A stretch of 64,000 nt of DNA from Sipunculus nudus (lineage: Eukaryota > Annelida > Sipuncula > Golfingiida > Sipunculidae): NCBI GenBank assembly GCA_026874595.1, contig CM049309.1, positions 16,880,576 through 16,944,575 of the forward strand, given 5' to 3'. The stretch's first letter is position 1; each line of letters begins with the position of its first letter. Shown piece by piece: positions 6,030 through 62,203 of this stretch. The position numbers were made by a program, and so were the translations under genes. Under the pieces are notes generated by a model, which had not been told where the DNA came from, made no database searches, and saw only the letters and a list, made by a program, of their open reading frames with translations.

Positions 6030-6345
6030 GCTAGCCATAACCTCTCGGAGACAACCTACTCGAAGCCTTAACCACTAGGCTACAGCCTATCTTAAGTCTT
6101 AACCACTAGGCCACATCCTACCCAAAACCTTAACCACTAGGCCACATCCTACCCAAACCCTTAACCACTAGGCTATATCCTACCGAAAGCCTTAACCATT
6201 AGGCCACATCCTACCCAAAGCCTGAACCACTAGGCTACATCATACACAATGCCTTAACCAATAAGCCATGTCTGATCCAAAGCCTTAACCACTAGGCTAC
6301 ATCTTACACAAAGCCTTCACCAGTATGCTATATCCAAAACCACTG
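6030..6345 (-). repeat. 31-bp tandem array with tRNA A-box-like units
   Basis: About ten units recur at an exact 31-bp step. The AACCACTAGG-type core begins at or near 6039, 6070, 6101, 6132, 6163, 6194, 6225, 6256, 6287 and 6318; the two edge units are degenerate. Read on the - strand, each core is close to TGGCCTAGTGGTTAAGGC. That fits the Pol III A-box consensus and the D-arm region of many tRNAs. No paired B box is seen in each unit, so this is an amplified half-promoter, not tRNA genes. Confidence 0.8.
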
Positions 6346-6839: not shown

Positions 6840-6925
6840 GGCGCTGGACTTGTGACCATAAGGGTTGGGGAACACTGCGCAGAATCGGACTCACAAGAGC
6901 ACGACTCTGCTGGTTAGGGTTTAAG
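6840..6925 (-). repeat. Dispersed tRNA-like repeat, copy 1
   Basis: The reverse complement closely matches 53656-53729, including CTTGTGAGTCCGATTCTGCG. That segment is loosely B-box-like. Two copies in opposite orientation, 47 kb apart, indicate a dispersed short element, probably a SINE fragment. Ends are not defined. Confidence 0.55.
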
Positions 6926-7487
6926 GGCAATGAAATTCAAACTCTACAGTGCTTCTATATTTACAAGCAGCGAAGGTATAAATCTAGTAAAGAGGGCAAT
7001 GTATTCCGTTGAAATACGTTTGATTATAATTGTTTTAGGGCAAATTACATAAACATGGGTGTTTAAGAGGTAAGGATTTCATGGAATAAATAATATTTTG
7101 TAAGCATGCGCATCAAAAAAGTAAACATAAGGTGTTTCCTTTATTTGTAACAAATTTTTATTTTAAAGTTTAACAGCTGAGACAATTAAGTAGTCCCGGC
7201 CGTTCCACAGTGCCTAACTGGAAGAGGTTCGTTTTAAGTATAAACGACTTCTGGCGGAAGGGTGAAGGTTGGGTTGCGTTCCTGTTTCGGCGCTGAGACC
7301 CCTAGTCAAAATCTTAACCACAAGGGTGCTCTCCCCTCCCAGGAGTGAATGAATACTGTCATGCATGGGCTTCAAACGAATGTTGAACGAACAACATTCT
7401 TGTGCATATCATGTTAAAGCTCAGTTGGGTTGTATATATAGGGGCTGAGAAAAGCTGCAAGAACGAAAAGGCTCGACAGAGCAGATA

Positions 7488-10123: not shown

Positions 10124-10987
10124 CATTTTCTTTCTTCATGTGCCTTTTACTTGCATATATCATAAATATATGATACAGTGAGTTTTGACCGCTGTAACTG
10201 ACGATGTATTTCAGCAGCATTGTACCAGGTTGAAATAATGTATACTCCGAGTGGTCTTATATGAATCTAAAACATTTTTTTTATCTAAGATATAGGGGTT
10301 ATGACAATAAGGATACCTGAACAGATAAATGCCAGTTGGCGTATATTTTAGAAAGAAGAAGAAATGATTAAAAAATATGATAATTTAAGCGCATTTCATC
10401 TTTTATAGTCCATAGTATCAAAGCTAGTATATCCGTGGGAATATAGATGGTAAACCTCCAGTTTTCATTTATTTTTTCTCCAAGAATAAAAGGACATAAT
10501 TTTTAAATATAAAACCACAAAAATAACAAAAATAACCGTTGCCTTTCCCTTTCATTTGTAGGCGTTTCCATTTTGGCCTTGAAATAGTATTGGGAAAATA
10601 AATGTCAAGCGTATGAAATGTAAAGGTTTCACCCCTAAAATAAACTACGGAATGAATATAATGCTCTCACAGATGTTAAACTTCCCACATTAGTGTCGAG
10701 GTAATTTTATGCTTGTGCACGTACGAGCTTTAGGAATGAATACAAATCGGGCGAAATACTGCGGGCAAAATTCAGTTATCACCTCTTTCGACAGGAAATT
10801 TATACGCAGAAGTAATTGATATAGTTCATTAAATTAATATTATAAATACATGATTTGAACAGTTGCATTTATAACGGCAAGAAAAAAAATATCTTTATTA
10901 CTTTATCATAGTAAAATATATATAGCTATACGTAAAGATGTCATAAGGAAGTTACTGATTATGTAACTAATATTGCTTATTTTAAAT

Positions 10988-11235
10988 TAAACAGACACTT
11001 AATTCATGGTGTGAAATATACTGATTTTAGAGAATGGCAAAAGGAACTATACTTATATAGATGATATTTGTTAAATAAATAATACGGACACTTTAATCAT
11101 TGGGTAAATATTGATTTAGAGAATAGCATAATGAACTATGCTCATATAAATGATATTTGTTACATAAATGATACGGAAACTTAATTCATTGCGTGAAATA
11201 CTGATTTTAGAGAATGGCAAAATGAACTATATGTG
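10988..11235. repeat. ~91-bp tandem repeat, about 2.6 units
   Basis: Units begin near 10991, 11084 and 11173. They share ACACTTAATTCAT, TAGAGAATGGCAAAA and GATATTTGTTA motifs, with point differences and small indels. No frame stays open through them. This is a short degenerate satellite. Confidence 0.75.
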
Positions 11236-15240: not shown

Positions 15241-15304
15241 ACACCACAAAAATAAAATTAAGTTGTGTGTGTAGGCGGATAAGAAGAACAAAAACTGTTT
15301 CATT

Positions 15305-15680
15305 GGGTGACATATTGGAATATAAATACCTTTGGTAAAATTAAGTTTACACTTTTTTTCTTTCTGCAGGAAGAATCATTATATTTGTATCATGTGAATA
15401 TTTAAATAGTCCTGCATTTCATTTTGAAACCATAGAAACCCCGTGATACCAAGTGTACCAAACAGGTGAAAGTAAAAGCAGTGTTTCCACAAACAGAATG
15501 AATTATTAAAGAACATGCATTTTCGATATCGCACATTCGCAAACATGACGTCATTGTGCTACATTTTTAATGACTATGGATGTATTGCGATGAACTAAAA
15601 GTATATGTGTACTGAGATGTTACTGTTAAAACTTGAGTAGATGAACCAGTACACTGTTTGGTCATATGTCGGAGGAAGAA
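15305..15680 (+). repeat. ~375-bp duplicated segment, copy 1
   Basis: This is a direct duplicate of 18180-18540. Shared landmarks include GACATATTGGAATATAAAT, TTTCTTTCTGCAG, CATAGAAACCCC, ACCAAACAGGTGAAAGTAAA, TTTCCACAAACAGAA and ATCGCACATTCGCA. The copies have diverged by substitutions and indels. Both keep an acceptor-like TTTCTTTCTGCAG and a donor-like AACAG/GTGAAAG. I find no open reading frame conserved between the copies. Confidence 0.75.
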
Positions 15681-18179
15681 TGTGACCGTGTTGTAATTCC
15701 CTTTACACTCACATGGCTCTGTTATTATCAATATACCGTGATCCATGTATGCAAAAGGTGTCTTTTAACGCAATAGCGGCTATGGTTGCGTGTAAAGTTT
15801 CATTTAGGCCGTCATTTCTGAAACTATCTGGTCGAGTTAATCGTCCAAATAGACCAATTATAAGACGTGTTAATCAGGATTCCCGTACGCGAAGCCTCGA
15901 TTTGATCACGTCGTCTCATTCAAATGGCCGTCATGCACGCTACAGAGCTCTCTCGGGGCCGACTTAACTCGTAACAGGACAGCTCGTGCCATCCGTTCCA
16001 TGGTGGGGTGGAACATATGAGAGGGAGGGGGTACTAATACAGTAAAGTGGCAAAAGGTGATGAAATGGGTAGCAACTACCTTGGTTTAGACACTTTTTAA
16101 AAATTGATGCTGTAATAGTTCAATAAGGTCAGTTTCGGTGGTGTTTTCCGGTATTGATACATTTCCCAGATTATTTGGGTTTTAAAGGTAAGCCCCCCTC
16201 CCCTCATCTGCCCCCTCCTTCTCAATCCTAACCATGGTGATAAACAACATGCGTGTCAGGAATGTATATTAGAGTTTGTCTGTAGGGGGAAGGGCGGCAG
16301 TCCGTATTAAGAAAAATATAAATAATAATTATTTTCCATACAATTCGTTCTGTACCTTACTTTAATATCCCATTTACATTCCATAACACTTGACTGTAAA
16401 AGTGAAACAGTCACAAGTACTAACTTCCTTGTTTTTTCATGTGTTCCCCCTTCCTTTTGGTGTATATTATAAAATAAACTTTATTAGAATATAATCACAA
16501 TAAATTCGCCAAGACGATCTTTTTTATCAAACATGAGATTAGGAAGATTAGCATCAATATATTGATGTCCAAAATACATTTTTGTTGAATCTTATAGGTT
16601 TAATTTTGAGCCATGAGCCTTAAACCATTTCCATGTGTAACTGTTTGTTGTAACAGAGATGTAGTAAACTTCTTTTTAATTCCTTTATTTAATTCTAATA
16701 TTTTTAATAAAAAAATCTAATTCCCAATCAAAATTTTTTTTTAATGATTGTATTAATTTTACTAGCACTATTTTCGATAAAGTCATTGAAATGAGAAATG
16801 AAGTGCTTTTGTACTTCCATTTCTTCTTGAAAATAGCAATGAAATGAACACATACGTTTGATCGGTTTCATCTGCTTCTCATATCATAGCATAATTTTTG
16901 TTTTAATTTTGTATGAATACAAGCCAAGTAGAAAAAAATAAATCTGTTTGGGCTTTGTGTATAAACGAATGGTCAATAAATTGGTTCTGTTCAGATCACG
17001 ACCACAATGTAATAAGATGGAATCTGTGTGTACATCATGCATGGACACGTATTTTGGTATCCACGTAAAATAATAAAAATAACAATGAAAACACAATGAT
17101 AAAACCCCTGTTGGAATGAATTAGCTTTGCTCAGTATGTAGCCTATCGCGTAAACAGCAGTCCGTGCGGCTGACGGGAGGATCTTATCAATGCCACTAGC
17201 AGTGATTCTGTGCGTGGGTGTTTGGGCGAGTTCACTTCGGGCCTTGTGGGTTTCAGGTTTATTTTAATCAGAACTTAAATAATTGACCCAGTGGGAGTTT
17301 TGCACGGATGAAACATTCCCTCATCCCCGCGATTTAAACCAATTAATTGTATGTTTAGAGCATTATTATAGTTATCTTTTTCAGATCCATGTTTATTGTT
17401 TATATGCGGGTTGTTTACTCGGTAGTTACGTGCAAAATCAGACCAGTAATATGTCTGTAAATACTTGTAATTGTACTCATAAAACCCTACTGTTTTAGAA
17501 GTGTACTTAAAGAAGTATTTCCTACAATGCACTGGGATTTCTTAACAAACCATCGGCGAAGAAAACAAATGGAGGTAGCCAGTTAACACATTTTGTATTA
17601 GATGTTTATAGAGAAATTACAAAGTGCACGATCTTTTATTGTGATAAATATTTGATGAAACTATTACAAGTGTTCTACTTTGAAGTTTGACGGTCTGATC
17701 AAGTAGTCCAAATTTTTCGACAATCCTTTACCAGAAGTGGCTTTTTTTAATTAAAACGACCTCTGTTGGACGCTACACTCCTAAACCATATATTATATTT
17801 TCTTTTCAAGTAGCAGAGAAACCTTTGGTGGTTAAAGTATGGTTCGTGAACCGGCAGTTTACTCCTGGGAATGCATGGGGCTACCATTTTCGTTCATTCT
17901 GAAACCCAAAAAAAATGGCTTCCAAGGTAGTGCTCAGGCTTAACAATCACAATTTATCATACCTTTGGGTTACCTTCAATCCTTATGAAACAGGCAGTGC
18001 CACCAAGAGGAAATATCTTTTAAAAAAAGGAGCATATATTCTATATGGACTTTCGATCCTTTGGTGAAGGTATGAAAAGTAAAAGACAGATGCAAAAATA
18101 TATGGTTGAGTGAAAATTCCAGGTGAACCTTCTGAAGACACTTGACTTGCGAAGGTATGCGCTCAATTTTTTACATTGA

Positions 18180-18540
18180 GTGGCATATTGGAATATAAAT
18201 AACTTAAGAAAAACAGTTTACACTTAAATAGTTTTTCTTTCTGCAGAAAGAATTAGTCATAGGCAATTTATTTTGAAACTATAGAAACCCCAGATACCTA
18301 GTGTGCCAAACAGGTGAAAGTAAAAGCAAGTTTCCACAAACAGAACGAATTATTACAGAACATGGATATTTGATATCGCACATTCGCATACATGCGTCAG
18401 CCGTGAAGTGTGTACATTTTTCATGACTATTTAGGTATTGTGATGGACTAAAAATACATAAGTGTACTGAGTAGCTAATGTATAAAGTAGGAAATAACAG
18501 GGGTAGATGAATTAGTACACAGTCTGATCATATGTAGGAG
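18180..18540 (+). repeat. ~360-bp duplicated segment, copy 2
   Basis: Partner of 15305-15680, in the same orientation ~2.9 kb downstream. It is shorter through deletions, for example after the CTGCAG site. Either a segmental duplication or two insertions of one dispersed element would explain it. Confidence 0.75.
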
Positions 18541-18549
18541 GAATAAAGA

Positions 18550-24436: not shown

Positions 24437-25169
24437 GAATAGCAAAATGAAATTTCTTTACAGTATGTAACATAGGGCAACTTTTGTTCTACTCAAGGAA
24501 ACAAAGGTGTGAAATCAAACATTTGAAGTTATGAACATGAACACTTAAACGAAAGACCGATTTCTTAATACAGTGGTACCCCTCCTCCCTATTATATAGT
24601 CAGACTTCCATAAAGTGGCCACCTCAATAAAGTGGGCAGTTTGTACTAGTACCAAAGTGCCCATATTATAGAGGCTTCACTGTAGAAATACAGATAATGT
24701 TGTCAATTTTATTTCATTACATAATACTCTATACATCACGAAACCTCTTTTGCTGGTATAGATCAAGTTTTATTCATATAAACTGACAGAATCAATAAGG
24801 ACTGGTACAATAAGACTGATACAACGCGTCATTTAAACCTTCAGGGGGGTCACATGACACTTACTGAGAGTCTATATGGATAAATACGCATTATGAAGGA
24901 ACACAAATATTGTAAAAAGGATAAGCCATTCTTTCATCGATGGTCAGAGCATACCTTTGCCACTACATACGCCAACGAAATTGAAAGGAGGTTAAATTTT
25001 CACCAAGGTTTGTCTGCTCTTTTGTCTCCCCAATAGTTCTCTCAATGAATAATCACGGAGAGTGGGTCGTAAATGAAGGGCTACACAAATTTAGAGACCT
25101 GTCTGAGCAATACTGTACTGTTCTGATCAATTGTCAAACCAGACACACAAACACACAAAAAGGAATGTT

Positions 25170-25702
<533 letters not shown>

Positions 25703-27130: not shown

Positions 27131-27473
27131 AACCCCTATTAATGCTCACTTACCGGAAACGCGAACACACGGGACACGTTAACTTCGTGGTGCGGGGTGT
27201 TCAAACGAGACCTGAACCGGTGGTTGGTCTACAATGTGCGCCGCATGAAGCAAGACCTTCTATGCACTAACTTATTTTTGGTCCCTAATTCGCGGTTCAT
27301 TCGTGAATAGGTGCCCGTACATTTGTGAATATTCCATAATGACGCTGGATCAACACCAAATCAAATCGATTCTTCTTTTGCCCATTCCCGAAATGTCCAG
27401 AAAATTACACGAGATCCCGTTTATGATTTCGTGAGTTCTATTGTGAACAAATACACACAATAAAGGGAATGAT

Positions 27474-27932
27474 CGCATTCCCTCATGACGGAGGCAATGA
27501 AAACTAACACTATATAGATAATTTGGATATAAATTCTATCTATAAACCACAGCCGAATACCGTTCATCTAAGAGATGACAATTGCCTACAAGACCATCCA
27601 AAGACTAAAATTTATACTCCACCCCACTCACCGGCAATTTATAAAATAAAGAGAGGCAGTTGGCCTTTCCGGTATCACCAAGACAACACGCCTAACTGGC
27701 AAGGAATCCAAAATTGTAGGAGGATACCCCCCCCCCCCACACACACACACACCAAGATATTCCTTCAGAGAACATTAATTAAGGGAGCGGGCCGCTGGCT
27801 CCTGGCAAGTTAGTTGCCCTATGGGCAGTTGTCATGTAATCAATACTCTAATAACATCTATACCTAGGACATACTTCATATCACTTCTAATATGCCGACA
27901 CAAATGATGAAATGTTGTCGAACTTGGTTATG
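27474..27932 (+). repeat. TA-tailed dispersed element, copy 2
   Basis: Counterpart of 25170-25597 in the same orientation. It contains an extra poly-C/CACA insertion at ~27728-27752. It ends in the TA tract at 27933-27982, the same arrangement as copy 1. The CATAA/GTGAACAAATACACAC phrase just upstream (~27437) also occurs at ~5797, so the element may extend further 5'. Confidence 0.8.

Positions 27933-27982
<50 letters not shown>
27933..27982. repeat. (TA)n tail of TA-tailed element, copy 2
   Basis: About 50 nt of pure TA following the second copy of the element. Confidence 0.95.
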
Positions 27983-32564: not shown

Positions 32565-32950
32565 AACGAAATTTTCCAGATAGTCAGACCTATGATGGGT
32601 AGAAAACGTTTTCAAATGACGAACATTCCTCCAAATAGCATGTTCTATGATCTGTAGTTCCTTTTTCAATGACTAACATTTCTCACAATAGTCAGCCCAA
32701 TGATCTGTATTTACTTTTCAGATGACGAGCAATTCTCACAACAGTCAGCCCAATCATCCTTAGTTACTTTCTCGCATGACGAACATATCTCCTTATAGTC
32801 AGCCTTTTGAAACGTAGTTACTTTTTCAAATGACGAACATGTTCCACAGTATCAGCCTAGTGATCTATGGTTACTTTTCAAATGATGAACATTTCTCACA
32901 GTAGTCAGCCCAATTATCTATATATACGTTCCCAATGACGAACAAATCAT
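32565..32950 (+). repeat. ~54-bp minisatellite, about seven units
   Basis: TAGTCAGCCCAATGATC-type phrases recur at ~32581, 32635, 32689, 32742, 32796, 32848 and 32902. Each is followed by TACTTTTTCAAATGACGAAC-like sequence. The step is 52-54 bp with divergence between units. No frame is conserved. Confidence 0.8.
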
Positions 32951-41084: not shown

Positions 41085-41660
41085 CCGTTATTTTTTTGGA
41101 CTCGAGATCGGACTCGAGCTCTATTTTTTAAGTATTCGGACTAAAGAGTCCTAGGGCTTGTACCCTAAGTCTAACTGGGGGGGGGGGGTAAGGACTCCGG
41201 TAATCTTGAATGAAGAAGAAAAACACTGTATTAATGTAAAAGCATATTAATGCCTTTACGTTAAAGAGACTAATAGGCCTACAAAAAAAAACTGTTATTA
41301 CCAAGCTGTACTTTGACATCAGGAGCTAAATTCTGTGAAACACTCAAGTAAAATATTCAGTTTGCCTGAATATATAAAAATATACATAGCAATCTCAAAT
41401 TTTCATTAAAATTTCTTTTAAAAAGGAGATTTGTATTGGGCTCGGACTCGGGTTTCAAGTGGCTCGGACTCGGGTTTCAAGTGGCTCGGACTCGGGTTTC
41501 AAGTGGCTCGGACTCGGGTTTCAAGTGGCTCGGACTCGGGTTTCACGTGGCTCGGACTCAAAGAAGGTCGAATAGGACTCGGACCTCAAGAACTCGATCG
41601 GACCTGGACTCGGACGCGAATGGCTTGGACTCCGAGTTGCGCTCAAACTCGATACTTAGG
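41085..41660. repeat. GGACTCG-arm repeat element, copy 2, with a clean 22-bp array
   Basis: The left arm (~41098-41160) contains GGACTCGAG-type motifs and a poly-G run (~41177-41187). An AT-rich core with CACTCAAGTAAAA follows (~41320-41430). The right arm has six CTCGGACTCGGGTTTCAAGTGG units at an exact 22-bp step (starts 41441, 41463, 41485, 41507, 41529, 41551), then degenerate GGACTCGGAC sequence to ~41640. The arm-core-arm layout matches 9362-9830. Confidence 0.75.
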
Positions 41661-46819: not shown

Positions 46820-49003
46820 TATAAAAGAGTCATTCAGGATAAGATGCAAATTAAACCATGTTCACTCTACCTATCTATCCCTTATTTCTCGGTTGCCATA
46901 CATGTGGAGTGTCCTGGTTATGTAATATATGTTACAAAAGCGTGTTATCATGAAGAGAAGAGCAGAAGACCATCACTGCCACAGCCACATTGACAATTAA
47001 GGCATGAACTCTAGTCACCAGTGATCTGACGTGTGACCTGACCCTTTTGGTGTATCAGAGTATTTCATTAATTTTTGTTGTAAATAAATCTATTCCAAAA
47101 CATTTTAATTCATGAAAAATATTTAAGAGCTGATGAAAATATGTGGCTAAAATGTCTTTTTAAAGTTTATGGCTATTTTTTAAGTGTTAAATAAATTTGC
47201 CTATGGAACTAATATTAACTATAATTCATTTGGAACGTTACACATGTGACAAATAATAAACATAAAACATGGCAGGCCACATGAAATCAACAGGAGTAGA
47301 TATTTTAGCATTATTTCTAGATAAAAGTACTCCTATAACATTTATTATTGCTTCAGAACAGTTCAGTAGCTATTATTGGTAAGAAACTTGCTTAACTGCC
47401 TCCGTTTTCTCCCTTTTTTGCAAATATCCAAACGTACCCTTGGTACGCTTTTCAATAAGAGGATACCCATAATTAAAATCTTATTTCAATTAAGATGCCA
47501 TATCAACCCAAAATGTAAAAGTACAAAATAAGATTACAAAAACAAATCGATTATCGCTTTAACGCTAAATAAAATCAGTGTAAGTATCAAGGTCTAGGGA
47601 AAAATACGTCATTCCGCTGGACAATACATAGAGTAGCTTCTGACGAACGCACTTCAGTCCTTTCTGTCGTTAATAGTAGTACTGTATGGGGCTCCAAGAA
47701 TACGGTTTTATCATGACCGCCCACCAGCCACCCTCTTTTGTCTCCGTGGGAAGTTTTCAATGCAAATGTGGGACCAGCGAGAAAAACCGGTAGAACACCA
47801 CAGATTAACATAACTGCACGAAGTTGTGCGAGGGGACTGACGTGGCTGCTTTGTTGACGTGCGATAACAGCGTCACCCTGTATTGAATTAGTACGGGTTG
47901 ACTGTATGTCTGCAGTTCTGTTGAGTGTTGAGCAGCATTACTAGAGGTGTTTGAGAACATGGGACTATTGCGCACAAGGATGGACATGGATACAGTCGTA
48001 AATGTTTGTTTGGCTCATTTAACTTCGTCTTTTTATATCGTCCTTGTCGTGTCTGCTGTACTCTCTTGTTGTTTTGTCTGTGGATATCTGTATCTGTGTC
48101 GTACCTATGATTTTTTAACTATTAGTAATAGATCTTTTGATCAATAACGCAGTAATGACGTGTAGCAAAAATATCCGCCGCAAATATCAAAGGTTATGTT
48201 TATATAGGATGGAACTTGAAAAGCATGTGTGTTCAATAGAGTGTCAATCAGTTAACCACGCATCACTCATTCAATATATCCGTTCTCTTGCTCTCACTTT
48301 CTTTTCATATATGTTTGCTTGTTTTTTTTCCCTTAAAATTTCTTTTATCAATATTTGATATGATAGTGTATAATGATAACAGTGACGTTGTTAAAACATG
48401 GGGAAACTGATTTTGAAAGATATTATTGTGCATTTAGTGACACTTGATTTCAGAAGACTAAGGCATTTAGAGAAAATTAGAAGATCCGTGTGACGTATAC
48501 GTGTATAGATTAAGGGAGACTTAGGACACTAGAAAATAAGTTAGATAAATGGATATCGGTCAACAATAGTGTCTAGAATAGTTTAGCAATAGTTTTAAGG
48601 TTTAGCGCTACTATGTATGATGTAGGATATCCTTTTGGATTGAGATATTTGAGAAAGCAAAGTGGCTTATTCAAGTGAGACAAAAACAGACATGGAAAAA
48701 CAACATATAGGTATTTTGAATTGCGAAGGACTTTAGACAGCGTTATCATTTGAACGCTCTGGGATTTCAGACGACACAGTAAGGAATAAAACTTTTTAGA
48801 CCAGTTTTGTTTCTCCTTTTGGTATTATTGAATTTCATTGAATCTGGCAGCAGAAACCACAATCTTATGAGGTGTAAATGTTGTTGATATCACCGATAAG
48901 AATACCTTTGTTAATAAGATAACCTTTGTTGAAGGGTCTTAGATCTTGAAAAAAGTACTGGAACACGGACACCATTAAATCTGATATTGTATTTCTATTA
49001 TCG
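46820..49003. other. Non-coding intronic stretch
   Basis: No exon is supported. A minus-strand frame at 47587-47811 starts with a hydrophobic, signal-peptide-like stretch. It lacks splice context or a recognisable domain, so I leave it uncalled. The rest is AT-rich. Confidence 0.4.
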
Positions 49004-49385
49004 AGTCCCTCCTTGAAAGAACTGTGACGCGGACACCGTTCATCACTATAATGGTACTCGTGGCGACATCGTTATAACATTTATAACATCCTTTTTACAG
49101 AGTCCCTCCGTGGAAAGAAATGTGATGCGGACACCTTTCATCACTATAGTGGTACTCGTGACGACATCGTTATAACATTTATAACATCCTTGACACGGAA
49201 ATGTGACACGGACACCGTTCATCACTATAGCGGTACTCGTGACGTCACAATTATAACATTAATAGCATACGTTTCACATTCTAGTAGTCCCTCTATGGAA
49301 AGTAATGGGACGCGGACATCGTCAATCACTTTAGTGGTACTCGTGGCATCACACAATTATAACATTTATAACATTCGTTTTACAG
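49004..49385 (+). repeat. Tandem truncated copies of the transmembrane exon (pseudo-exons)
   Basis: Four copies of the exon's first ~62 nt stand directly upstream of the real exon: ~49004, ~49101, ~49191 (5'-truncated) and ~49286. Each is followed by a spacer like ATTATAACATTTATAACATC, and two spacers end in TTTTACAG. The unit is intron 3' end plus exon 5' half, about 97 bp. Each copy lacks the membrane-spanning half and the donor. The 49101 copy keeps a near-intact acceptor and open frame, but would hit TAA after ~24 codons. The 49004 copy is frameshifted. They arose by local tandem duplication and could act as decoy acceptors. Confidence 0.85.
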
Positions 49386-49531
49386 AGTCCCTCCGTGGAA
49401 AGAAATGTGACGCGGACACCGTTCATCACTATAGTGGTACTCGTGGCGGGGGTGGCTGGAGGCCTCATCTTCGTTATCTCTGTCATCTTGTTCTGTAAAT
49501 ATTGCATGAAACGAAAGAAGGTCCTTAAAAG
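49386..49531 (+). CDS. Transmembrane exon of a single-pass membrane protein (exon 3 of the model)
   Basis: This 146-nt exon runs from TTTTACAG to GTGAGT. It encodes residues 8-55 of the model plus two bases of codon 56. The residues before the membrane carry an N-glycosylation sequon (N14-V15-T16). Residues ~20-43 are a continuous hydrophobic helix with a small-residue GVAGG stretch (G29 and G33 spaced as in GxxxG). A C-K-Y-C-M-K-R-K-K-V-L-K segment follows, with two candidate palmitoylation cysteines and strong positive charge. By the positive-inside rule this predicts the N-terminus outside or luminal and the C-terminus cytosolic. The layout resembles synaptotagmin N-termini, but many single-pass proteins share it. 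The exon ends in phase 2, matching the exon at 61059. Its first half is copied in the tandem array immediately upstream. Confidence 0.8.
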
Positions 49532-51392
49532 GTGAGTGCAAAATAAATATGATATATTTATGAACAAATGATTATAACATATGAAAATTCATTTTATTCA
49601 CATTTAAAAGAAATTCTGCATGGTGTTGTCTATGTTTGTTTATAATACACAAAAGGCGGTAATTAAAGCACAGAAAGGTACAACACCCCGTTTTTATGTC
49701 AAAATCGTTTTTCTTCATCTTTTGGGAAATCAGTTCATAATTGATTTTTTAATCCGTGTAGAATATTTCAAAAGAAGAATTGAAGCGTAATTTAAAAAGA
49801 AAAAAACCCATTCGAACAGGTCACGATTGCCTGAGGTCAATGACTGTTCGCATGTTTGACCAAGGACCTTTCAGGAAATGATTGTTGGTTTACTCGTCTT
49901 GTGAAAATCAAGTGAATACTTCGATCACATATATACAAAAGTGAAACTGGAGTTTGTTAATTAGGTGACGGTTTACTCTTAGTTTATGATTATATTCCCA
50001 AATTTCGGACGTTATAAATAACAGTGGTTTCGAATTTGATTAAAACATTATTAACAAGAAAATAGGGCAATATAAACATCCTATGGTCATTGAAATGATA
50101 CACATATCAACGTGTTTTGTAACCATTTTTTTCGGCCGAAAGCAGGGGGTAAATTTATGCATATTGTGATCGGTATGTCTTATTTAAGGCAGAGGTTTAC
50201 CCGTTAATTGAAACATGTTTCAGAAATCTCTAAATGGGAAATGATTACGATGGCAATAGTTACATGGATTCGCTGTTTGTTGGATTTTAATGCGGATCCA
50301 TGGATCGGATTTAGCGAACGAAAACCTTAAAGTGTCCGCAATGACCTACAGAGTACCAGTTGGCGGATATATCAGAAATTCATGGAGGCAACTCAGGATA
50401 AAATATGGGAAATTGCAACACAAGCGGCGGAGAAATCAGGGTACCAAGATCAATCTAATATTGAATTATTCAAACTGGGGCAGCCCTTGATGCCAGGCGG
50501 TTTGTTTTTGGAGCTATTAACTGAGTAAGCCGTTGTAAGTTTAGACACTGGATGCGCAGTCAAAGCACGTGCCGGGATACAGAACTGGGGCACACTTGTG
50601 TCCTGCAACACAAACAAGCATCCTCATGCAGTTAAATCAAGGGCTGATATTTGAACGCACTTCCTGTTTGCCTTCAATATTCTCCGCTTTCAGGCACGAT
50701 TCTTGTTTTCCGTCGCATTGTTTCGGACAGGCAGAATCTACAGCCCGGAGGCCAACCTTTCTGGCTCAATGGATGTTCATCAGTTTTGAATATCAGGGAG
50801 TCTTTAGAAAAAATATGAATGTAAAAGTATCATTTTATTGAATAGCAGAAACACGTCTAGCAACACGCAGTTTTTTACACGGGATACATTTGCATCCTTA
50901 TGGTATTTGTATTTTGTTGGCAATCTTTTTTGTCTTTCATTGAACTTACGGTCGTTCATGTGTTAGGAACCACTGGGGACCTGGTAATTTTATATTTTGG
51001 TCATATTGACCTCATACGCATCAAGGGTGCATGTGAAATTCCATATGCTAAAAGTTACCCTTGAAAAGGTACTGACTATAGTACACTTAATCCAATTTAT
51101 TGAGGCATACTAGAAATATGGGTGGAAAATTCAGCGCAACGCCAATTCACTACGCTTCGCGGAAACTTCAATTCCTTTGAAAAGTACAAGGCATTTGAGG
51201 GATCAGAACAGCTCGAAATGGAAATATGGAAACCACTTTGTCATTGGCTTAGCGCACAAGAGAAAAAGATCGCTGGTTATCACAGTTACAATTATCATTA
51301 TTCATTAGGCAGATAATTTGCAAATGAACCACAAACATAAAGAAACTTGTCTCAGGTAAATGTAATGGCGAAAGGGAGCACCATGCTTTTTT

Positions 51393-61058: not shown

Positions 61059-61244
61059 ACAACAAGCGGTTTTCCAGAGAGACAGTCCAGGGCGAGGCCG
61101 GCGGCAGGGAAGAAAATATGAAAGTTTAGACTCCGTGTTGTGTGTAGAGGCGGGAGGTAGCCCACAGCCAGAGCCCCCAGTAAAAACACCTCGCCCACCA
61201 TCCAGAACACCTACCCGCTCCAGTCGAGGTTCTTTATCCAAAAG
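61059..61244 (+). CDS. Basic, proline-rich linker exon of the membrane protein (exon 4 of the model)
   Basis: This 186-nt exon lies between a strong acceptor (TTCTTTTCTTATATCCAG) and a donor (AAAAG/GTAGGA). It is markedly GC-rich against its AT-rich flanks. It starts in phase 2 (one base completes an Arg codon begun at 49530-49531) and ends in phase 2. It is therefore symmetric and could be skipped without shifting the frame. It encodes about 61 full residues: an Arg/Gly-rich part (S-P-G-R-G-R-R-Q-G-R), then K-Y-E-S-L-D-S-V, then a Pro/Ser/Thr/Arg-rich part ending S-S-R-G-S-L-S-K. R-x-x-S-type phosphorylation motifs and low complexity point to a disordered cytosolic linker. No catalytic or folded domain is visible. 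The opposite strand also has an 85-codon frame, a shadow of this exon. Confidence 0.75.
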
Positions 61245-62129: not shown

Positions 62130-62203
62130 GTCTGAAAATGATGATGATGAGAGTAACATTGACCTAGTCGTAGCCCGTTACAAAGAGAGCTTAAAAATAC
62201 GTG
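62130..62203 (+). CDS. Acidic/juxta-domain exon of the membrane protein (exon 5 of the model, gene continues)
   Basis: This 74-nt exon is bounded by TGACTTTCTGCAG and the consensus donor GTAAGT. Its first base completes an Arg codon with the two bases carried from 61244. The next 24 codons give S-E-N-D-D-D-E-S-N-I-D, a strongly acidic stretch, then L-V-V-A-R-Y-K-E-S-L-K-I-R. One base remains (phase 1). The acidic patch after a basic/proline-rich linker resembles synaptotagmin linkers. The R-Y-K-x-S-L core is faintly like a segment near the vertebrate Syt7 membrane region, from memory and not tested. Downstream exons, where C2 or other domains would appear, lie beyond the window. Confidence 0.75.

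Follow-up and report, generated by a model that had tools for sequence, protein, structure and literature searches.

Boundary-Spanning Tandem Repeats in Known Systems

Tandem copies of intron-exon boundaries have been described in amphioxus under the name "mirages" (PMC3087553, PMC3902484), and arrays of this kind are described mainly in lancelets; a literature search for molluscan cases found none. The boundary copies of amphioxus mirages lie directly beside the real boundary, and splice signals are kept in many, not all, of them (PMC3087553, PMC3902484). At the Adh3 and globin mirages regular splicing was reported to be undisturbed and the copy number to be variable, and it was proposed that mirages can seed new introns (PMC3087553). 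The amphioxus PGBD5 gene carries 60- and 108-bp repeats over its splice sites (PMC3902484), and the PGBD5 and troponin C arrays have been likened to mirages (PMC3087553, PMC3902484).

The locus described here lies in a stretch of 64,000 nucleotides, referred to below as the window. By its structural features the array found there can be considered a further case of mirages. Its repeat unit straddles an intron-exon boundary, as it is composed of exon nucleotides and a spacer resembling an intron end, and the array adjoins the authentic boundary of a predicted exon, the 5' part of which forms the last unit. Some splice signals are also kept, in that one decoy acceptor is intact among the four copies. 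Its unit is similar in size to those of the amphioxus arrays (150-160 bp in BflGb6, 157 bp in BflGb9, 10-72 bp in Adh3, besides the two PGBD5 repeats), although its units are more diverged than those of BflGb6, which are 81-100% identical (PMC3087553, PMC3902484). Unlike the amphioxus arrays, it retains a single intact decoy acceptor, and its boundary stands beside a membrane span.

Two other systems are comparable in part. A potato RdRp gene gained an intron by a tandem duplication across an intron-exon boundary; as in the present array, the 3' end of the intron and the 5' part of the exon were duplicated, with the branch site, pyrimidine tract and AG copied, but in potato the exon supplied a donor, so that a new intron arose, which was seen in RNA-seq (PMC4974935). 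No new intron is expected in the present array, because none of its copies has a usable donor. Human genes of segmental duplications likewise contain minisatellites at exon-intron boundaries that are able to alter splicing; these differ in that their units average about 30 bp and in that they lie in recent paralogues (PMC2812944).

Structure of the Array

The array consists of five units in register, four partial copies (U1, from 49003 or 49004, to U4) and the true exon, U5 (Table 1). TRF reports it in three rows with scores of 327, 234, and 322; the last value was reached by none of 50 dinucleotide-shuffled windows, in which the maximum at a period of at least 20 was 80. Each copy comprises exon nucleotides 1 to 62-63 and, after them, a spacer some 35-41 nt long. 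The preliminary description had recognized four partial copies of the exon's beginning, and alignment confirms their similarity as well as the length of three of them, U3 being shorter, at 47 nt. The exon parts match U5, in a fixed register, at 59 of 62 positions plus a 1-nt gap (U1), 60/63 (U2), 44/47 (U3), and 54/63 (U4). The step, taken earlier as a uniform one of about 97 bp, is really one of 98 bp modified by indels: the repeat finder gives common-core spacings of 98, 81, 104, and 100 bp. The exon has a GC content of 48% and copies U1 and U2 have 49-52%, against 23 and 26% in the two spacers measured. The spacers contain a pyrimidine tract and, where they are intact, CAG.

Table 1. Coordinates of the array, of the predicted exons and of the stretch resembling the spacer (window positions unless stated otherwise).
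Feature	Position	Strand	Characteristics
U1, first partial copy	49003-49065	+	62 nt and a 1-nt gap; weak acceptor context CGAG
Spacer 2	49066-49100	+	A+T-rich (26% GC); pyrimidine tract; CAG acceptor
U2, second partial copy	49101-49163	+	intact decoy acceptor (first exon base 49101)
Spacer 3	49164-49197	+	AG missing, together with the 16 exon nt that follow
U3, third partial copy	49198-49244	+	lacks acceptor and first 16 nt
Spacer 4	49245-49285	+	insertion; weak AGs (first exon base 49285 or 49288)
U4, fourth partial copy	49286-49348	+	most diverged copy
Spacer 5	49349-49385	+	intron end before the true exon; acceptor score 2.3
U5, true exon	49386-49531	+	146 nt; begins in phase 0 and leaves two extra bases at the end
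Stretch of the downstream intron resembling the spacer	49571-49596	+	lead on the origin of the spacer
Predicted second exon	61059-61244	+	phase-compatible with 49531; splice-site scan
Predicted third exon	62130-62203	+	phase-compatible; splice-site scan
Predicted fourth exon	L002:465-666 (window-equivalent 64389-64590)		outside the window; weak sites (acceptor 1.0, donor 1.7)
Predicted last exon	L002:1819-3883 (window-equivalent 65743-67807)		outside the window; 687 whole codons before the stop

A profile built from the five units detected no further significant copy within the window. A degenerate sixth copy considered at 48952-48977 was rejected, as 19 of 313 other 200-nt blocks score equally high. 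As had been proposed earlier, neither a donor nor the second half of the membrane span is present in any of the four copies; the best GT within 49003-49385 scores only -0.6. Since no GT inside them is plausible as a donor, the copies cannot act as cassette exons, nor do they possess the acceptor and donor of their own, with an open frame keeping phase, that would mark a cluster of mutually exclusive exons. The donor in the duplicated exon part on which an intron gain depends is missing as well.

The True Exon and the Predicted Gene

Exon 49386-49531 is the sole stretch of the window, in six frames, that qualifies, under the criteria used, as a membrane span with basic residues following it. 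The span lies within FITIVVLVAGVAGGLIFVISVILF and is followed by CKYCMKRKK. The donor of the exon, AAG/GTGAGT, has the top score among the 3,718 GTs of the plus strand. With the four downstream exons predicted (Table 1), of which the third and fourth of the chain were chosen partly for keeping phase, it forms a continuous in-phase frame of 890 codons whose only stop is at the end. The transmembrane exon was absent from a first exon scan with stricter cut-offs, owing to its middling acceptor. The exon nevertheless looks real, a prediction that draws on its donor, its membrane span, and the in-phase chain. The chain ends in ...STDV, which resembles a PDZ-binding end.

The five-exon chain matches no Pfam family at its cut-off, and no match with E up to 0.1 was obtained for the three plus-strand frames of about 4003-64000 (with X at stops) or for L002; on the minus strand the Pfam search covered a few open frames. 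Weak matches over the membrane span and the adjoining residues are Syndecan-like (E 0.026), CD4-like (E 0.19), and sodium-channel-beta-2-like (E 0.27). A protein search of the genome revealed no paralogue of the gene, the best match beyond its own exons and copy U2 having E = 3.07. Rfam at gathering scores and ARAGORN returned nothing, and of 81 stretches of viral contigs that fit a pattern, none is a relative.

Two scans of window-equivalent -14000 to 49000 yielded no initial exon that is hydrophobic at its start and ends in phase 0. The half of the exon that the copies retain had been called luminal in the preliminary description; this orientation is unproven, with no upstream exon found in these scans and the predicted protein below every Pfam cut-off. 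Further predicted exons were recognized by eye in the neighbourhood, WD40-like ones upstream (window-equivalent -24122 to -16554) and C-type-lectin-like ones downstream (window-equivalent 108376-110289).

Decoy Acceptors and Reading Frames

Splice sites were scored with approximate matrices, and small differences between scores are therefore not decisive. On this scale the decoy acceptor of U2 at 49101 reaches 3.3, against 2.3 for the true acceptor at 49386; the latter value lies near the 95th percentile among 3,326 AGs. The near-identical decoy stands 285 nt upstream of the true site. The other copies have fared worse. U1 reads CGAG where U5 reads CAGAG, and its site at 49006 scores -2.4; the acceptor of U3 is gone through a 17-nt deletion; that of U4 was altered by an insertion, leaving AGs that score -0.4 (49285) and 0.2 (49288). 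The preliminary view that the copies keep their acceptors thus holds for U2, but not for U3, where the acceptor is deleted, nor for U4 and U1, where it is altered and weak or simply weak. The suggestion that decoys could compete with the true site stands for 49101 at least, as far as approximate scores can tell.

Because the frame requires it, the upstream exon was taken as ending in phase 0. Given such an exon, stops follow 16 of the 17 AGs examined in 48901-49335, the exception being the AG at 49335, which scores -1.7 and adds 17 codons. Splicing at 49101 would give a 431-nt exon in which 24 codons are followed by a stop at 49173-49175.

This arrangement raises the question of a functional splice switch, in which 49101 would be used on purpose to produce an unproductive or soluble form (SPSVERNVMRTPFITIVVLVTTSL-stop) and the array would tune the amount of the membrane protein. 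The higher score of 49101 points in this direction, as does the fact that U2 is the copy to have kept acceptor, preceding spacer, and frame undamaged; the weak acceptor of U1 (49006) likewise keeps the frame and leads to nearly the same tail. These features of 49101 and U2, read from sequence, likewise count against a passive array. On the other side, an exon of 431 nt flanked by long introns should be poorly recognized, the other copies are broken, and U2 departs from the exon at 3 of 63 positions, 2 of which change an amino acid, about what is expected without constraint. The related amphioxus arrays, moreover, are reported not to disturb splicing (PMC3087553, PMC3902484). Deliberate use of 49101 is judged improbable. 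Slightly less probable still is that 49101 constitutes a working switch exchanging the anchor for a stop, through which the copy number could vary the balance between membrane-bound and unproductive or soluble protein from one individual to another.

Divergence and Age of the Copies

Whole units, each taken as the preceding spacer plus the exon part, are 70-92% identical, the low end including the unlike flank before U1; without U1 the range is 74-92%. The 18 differences in the exon parts are spread over the three codon positions as 6, 5, and 7 in the fixed register, and 5 of them are synonymous, changes common to several copies being counted more than once. As 28% synonymous changes are expected at random, no constraint is seen on the copies.

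The array looks like an old and decaying one, because its units are 70-92% identical, carry unit-specific indels, and have damaged or weak decoy acceptors in three of the four copies. The same features leave the ongoing expansion envisaged in the preliminary description unsupported.

Genomic Surroundings

A DNA search in which very common words were skipped located the array at one locus only in the 1.43-Gb, 153-contig assembly; the 203-nt flank before it likewise has a single match in the genome. With no copies elsewhere in that search, the array does not behave as a dispersed transposable element. Tandem repeats are prone to assembly errors, an aberrantly assembled version of a comparable amphioxus array is reported in PMC3087553, and differing copy numbers between two assemblies at such arrays are reported in PMC3902484. 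It is nevertheless very unlikely that the present array arose from misassembly or joined alleles, because its copies differ from one another by substitutions and unit-specific indels and because the search gives a single locus.

The 262,100 bases around the window contain 60 TRF rows with a period of at least 20, overlapping rows included. One of these rows overlaps any of 21 hand-listed predicted exons, namely the mirage-like array itself. As these surroundings are rich in tandem repeats, an array across an exon boundary needs no special cause.

Other minisatellites of the window occupy 6033-6322, 10983-11231, 32609-32921, and 41439-41559 (periods 31, 89, 53, and 22), and none of them overlaps a listed predicted exon. 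Arrays with periods near 166 and 337-340 occur around the window, e.g., at window-equivalent 82728-84364, 134713-137073, and 139290-142998, as if they belonged to one dispersed satellite family with a monomer of about 168 bp. Dispersed repeats that are 71-78% alike are also present in the window: 25145-25652 and 27447-27982, 15298-15680 and 18171-18546, and 6872-7264 and 53709-53327.

Origin of the Spacer

According to the preliminary description each copy is accompanied by an intron-end spacer. A spacer indeed follows all four copies and precedes U2 to U5, but none precedes U1. The flank before U1 is not spacer-like, since 29% of 3,000 random 35-mers score equally well, and a spacer at this place was rejected. 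The left edge of the array can therefore be placed approximately at the exon start. A plain duplication of an intron end together with an exon start predicts a spacer before U1, contrary to the flank that is seen.

The second half of the exon was tried as the source of the spacer and rejected, as 946 of 1,573 blocks score as well under strict settings and 1,465 under lax ones. The downstream intron provides a better lead: none of 967 window blocks scores as high against the spacer as 49571-49596, and 5 of 1,000 shuffles do. This likeness and the bare flank of U1 count against a plain duplication and suggest another history. The segment duplicated first may have been the exon together with the start of the downstream intron, because U1 has no spacer, the array begins at about the exon start, and the spacer resembles 49571-49596 and not the second half of the exon. 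Later loss of that second half, of the donor, and of some of the intron would have left the exon start and the spacer, which were then amplified. Such a course, under which the array would still be of the same kind, requires an extra deletion, and the match on which it draws is short, A+T-rich, found in one of three places tried (upstream, downstream, and the exon remainder), and owes most of its signal to one of the four spacers; we regard this history as possible but tentative.

Interpretation and Significance

The array, the exon prediction, the frames, the splice-site scores, and the single genomic locus are established. They are probably best explained by a mirage-type minisatellite that was duplicated and then decayed, and the copies of which are spliced out within the intron. 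A boundary segment, comprising exon nucleotides 1 to 62-63 and a spacer resembling an intron end, would have been tandemly duplicated several times; the copies would then have decayed, and the four truncated ones would now be intronic. The spliceosome would most likely choose 49386 through exon definition, because only this site opens a short exon (146 nt) with a very strong donor at its end, amid long introns. Occasional use of 49101 would give the 431-nt exon with its stop after 24 codons, and the product could be expected to be a degraded mRNA or a shortened protein whose membrane anchor is incomplete. The array is probably neutral and of little effect, its copies leaving with the intron. 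This passive reading is supported by the stops that follow 16 of the 17 upstream AGs, by the lack of a usable donor, by the unconstrained changes, and by the reported harmlessness of the amphioxus arrays to splicing.

The array offers a natural test of how the spliceosome chooses a true site beside a near-identical upstream decoy. At 1.43 Gb, the genome that carries it exceeds those of lancelets in size. Finding such an array in a genome that is larger, and probably not a lancelet's, would point to boundary-spanning minisatellites as a general by-product of tandem-repeat-rich genomes.
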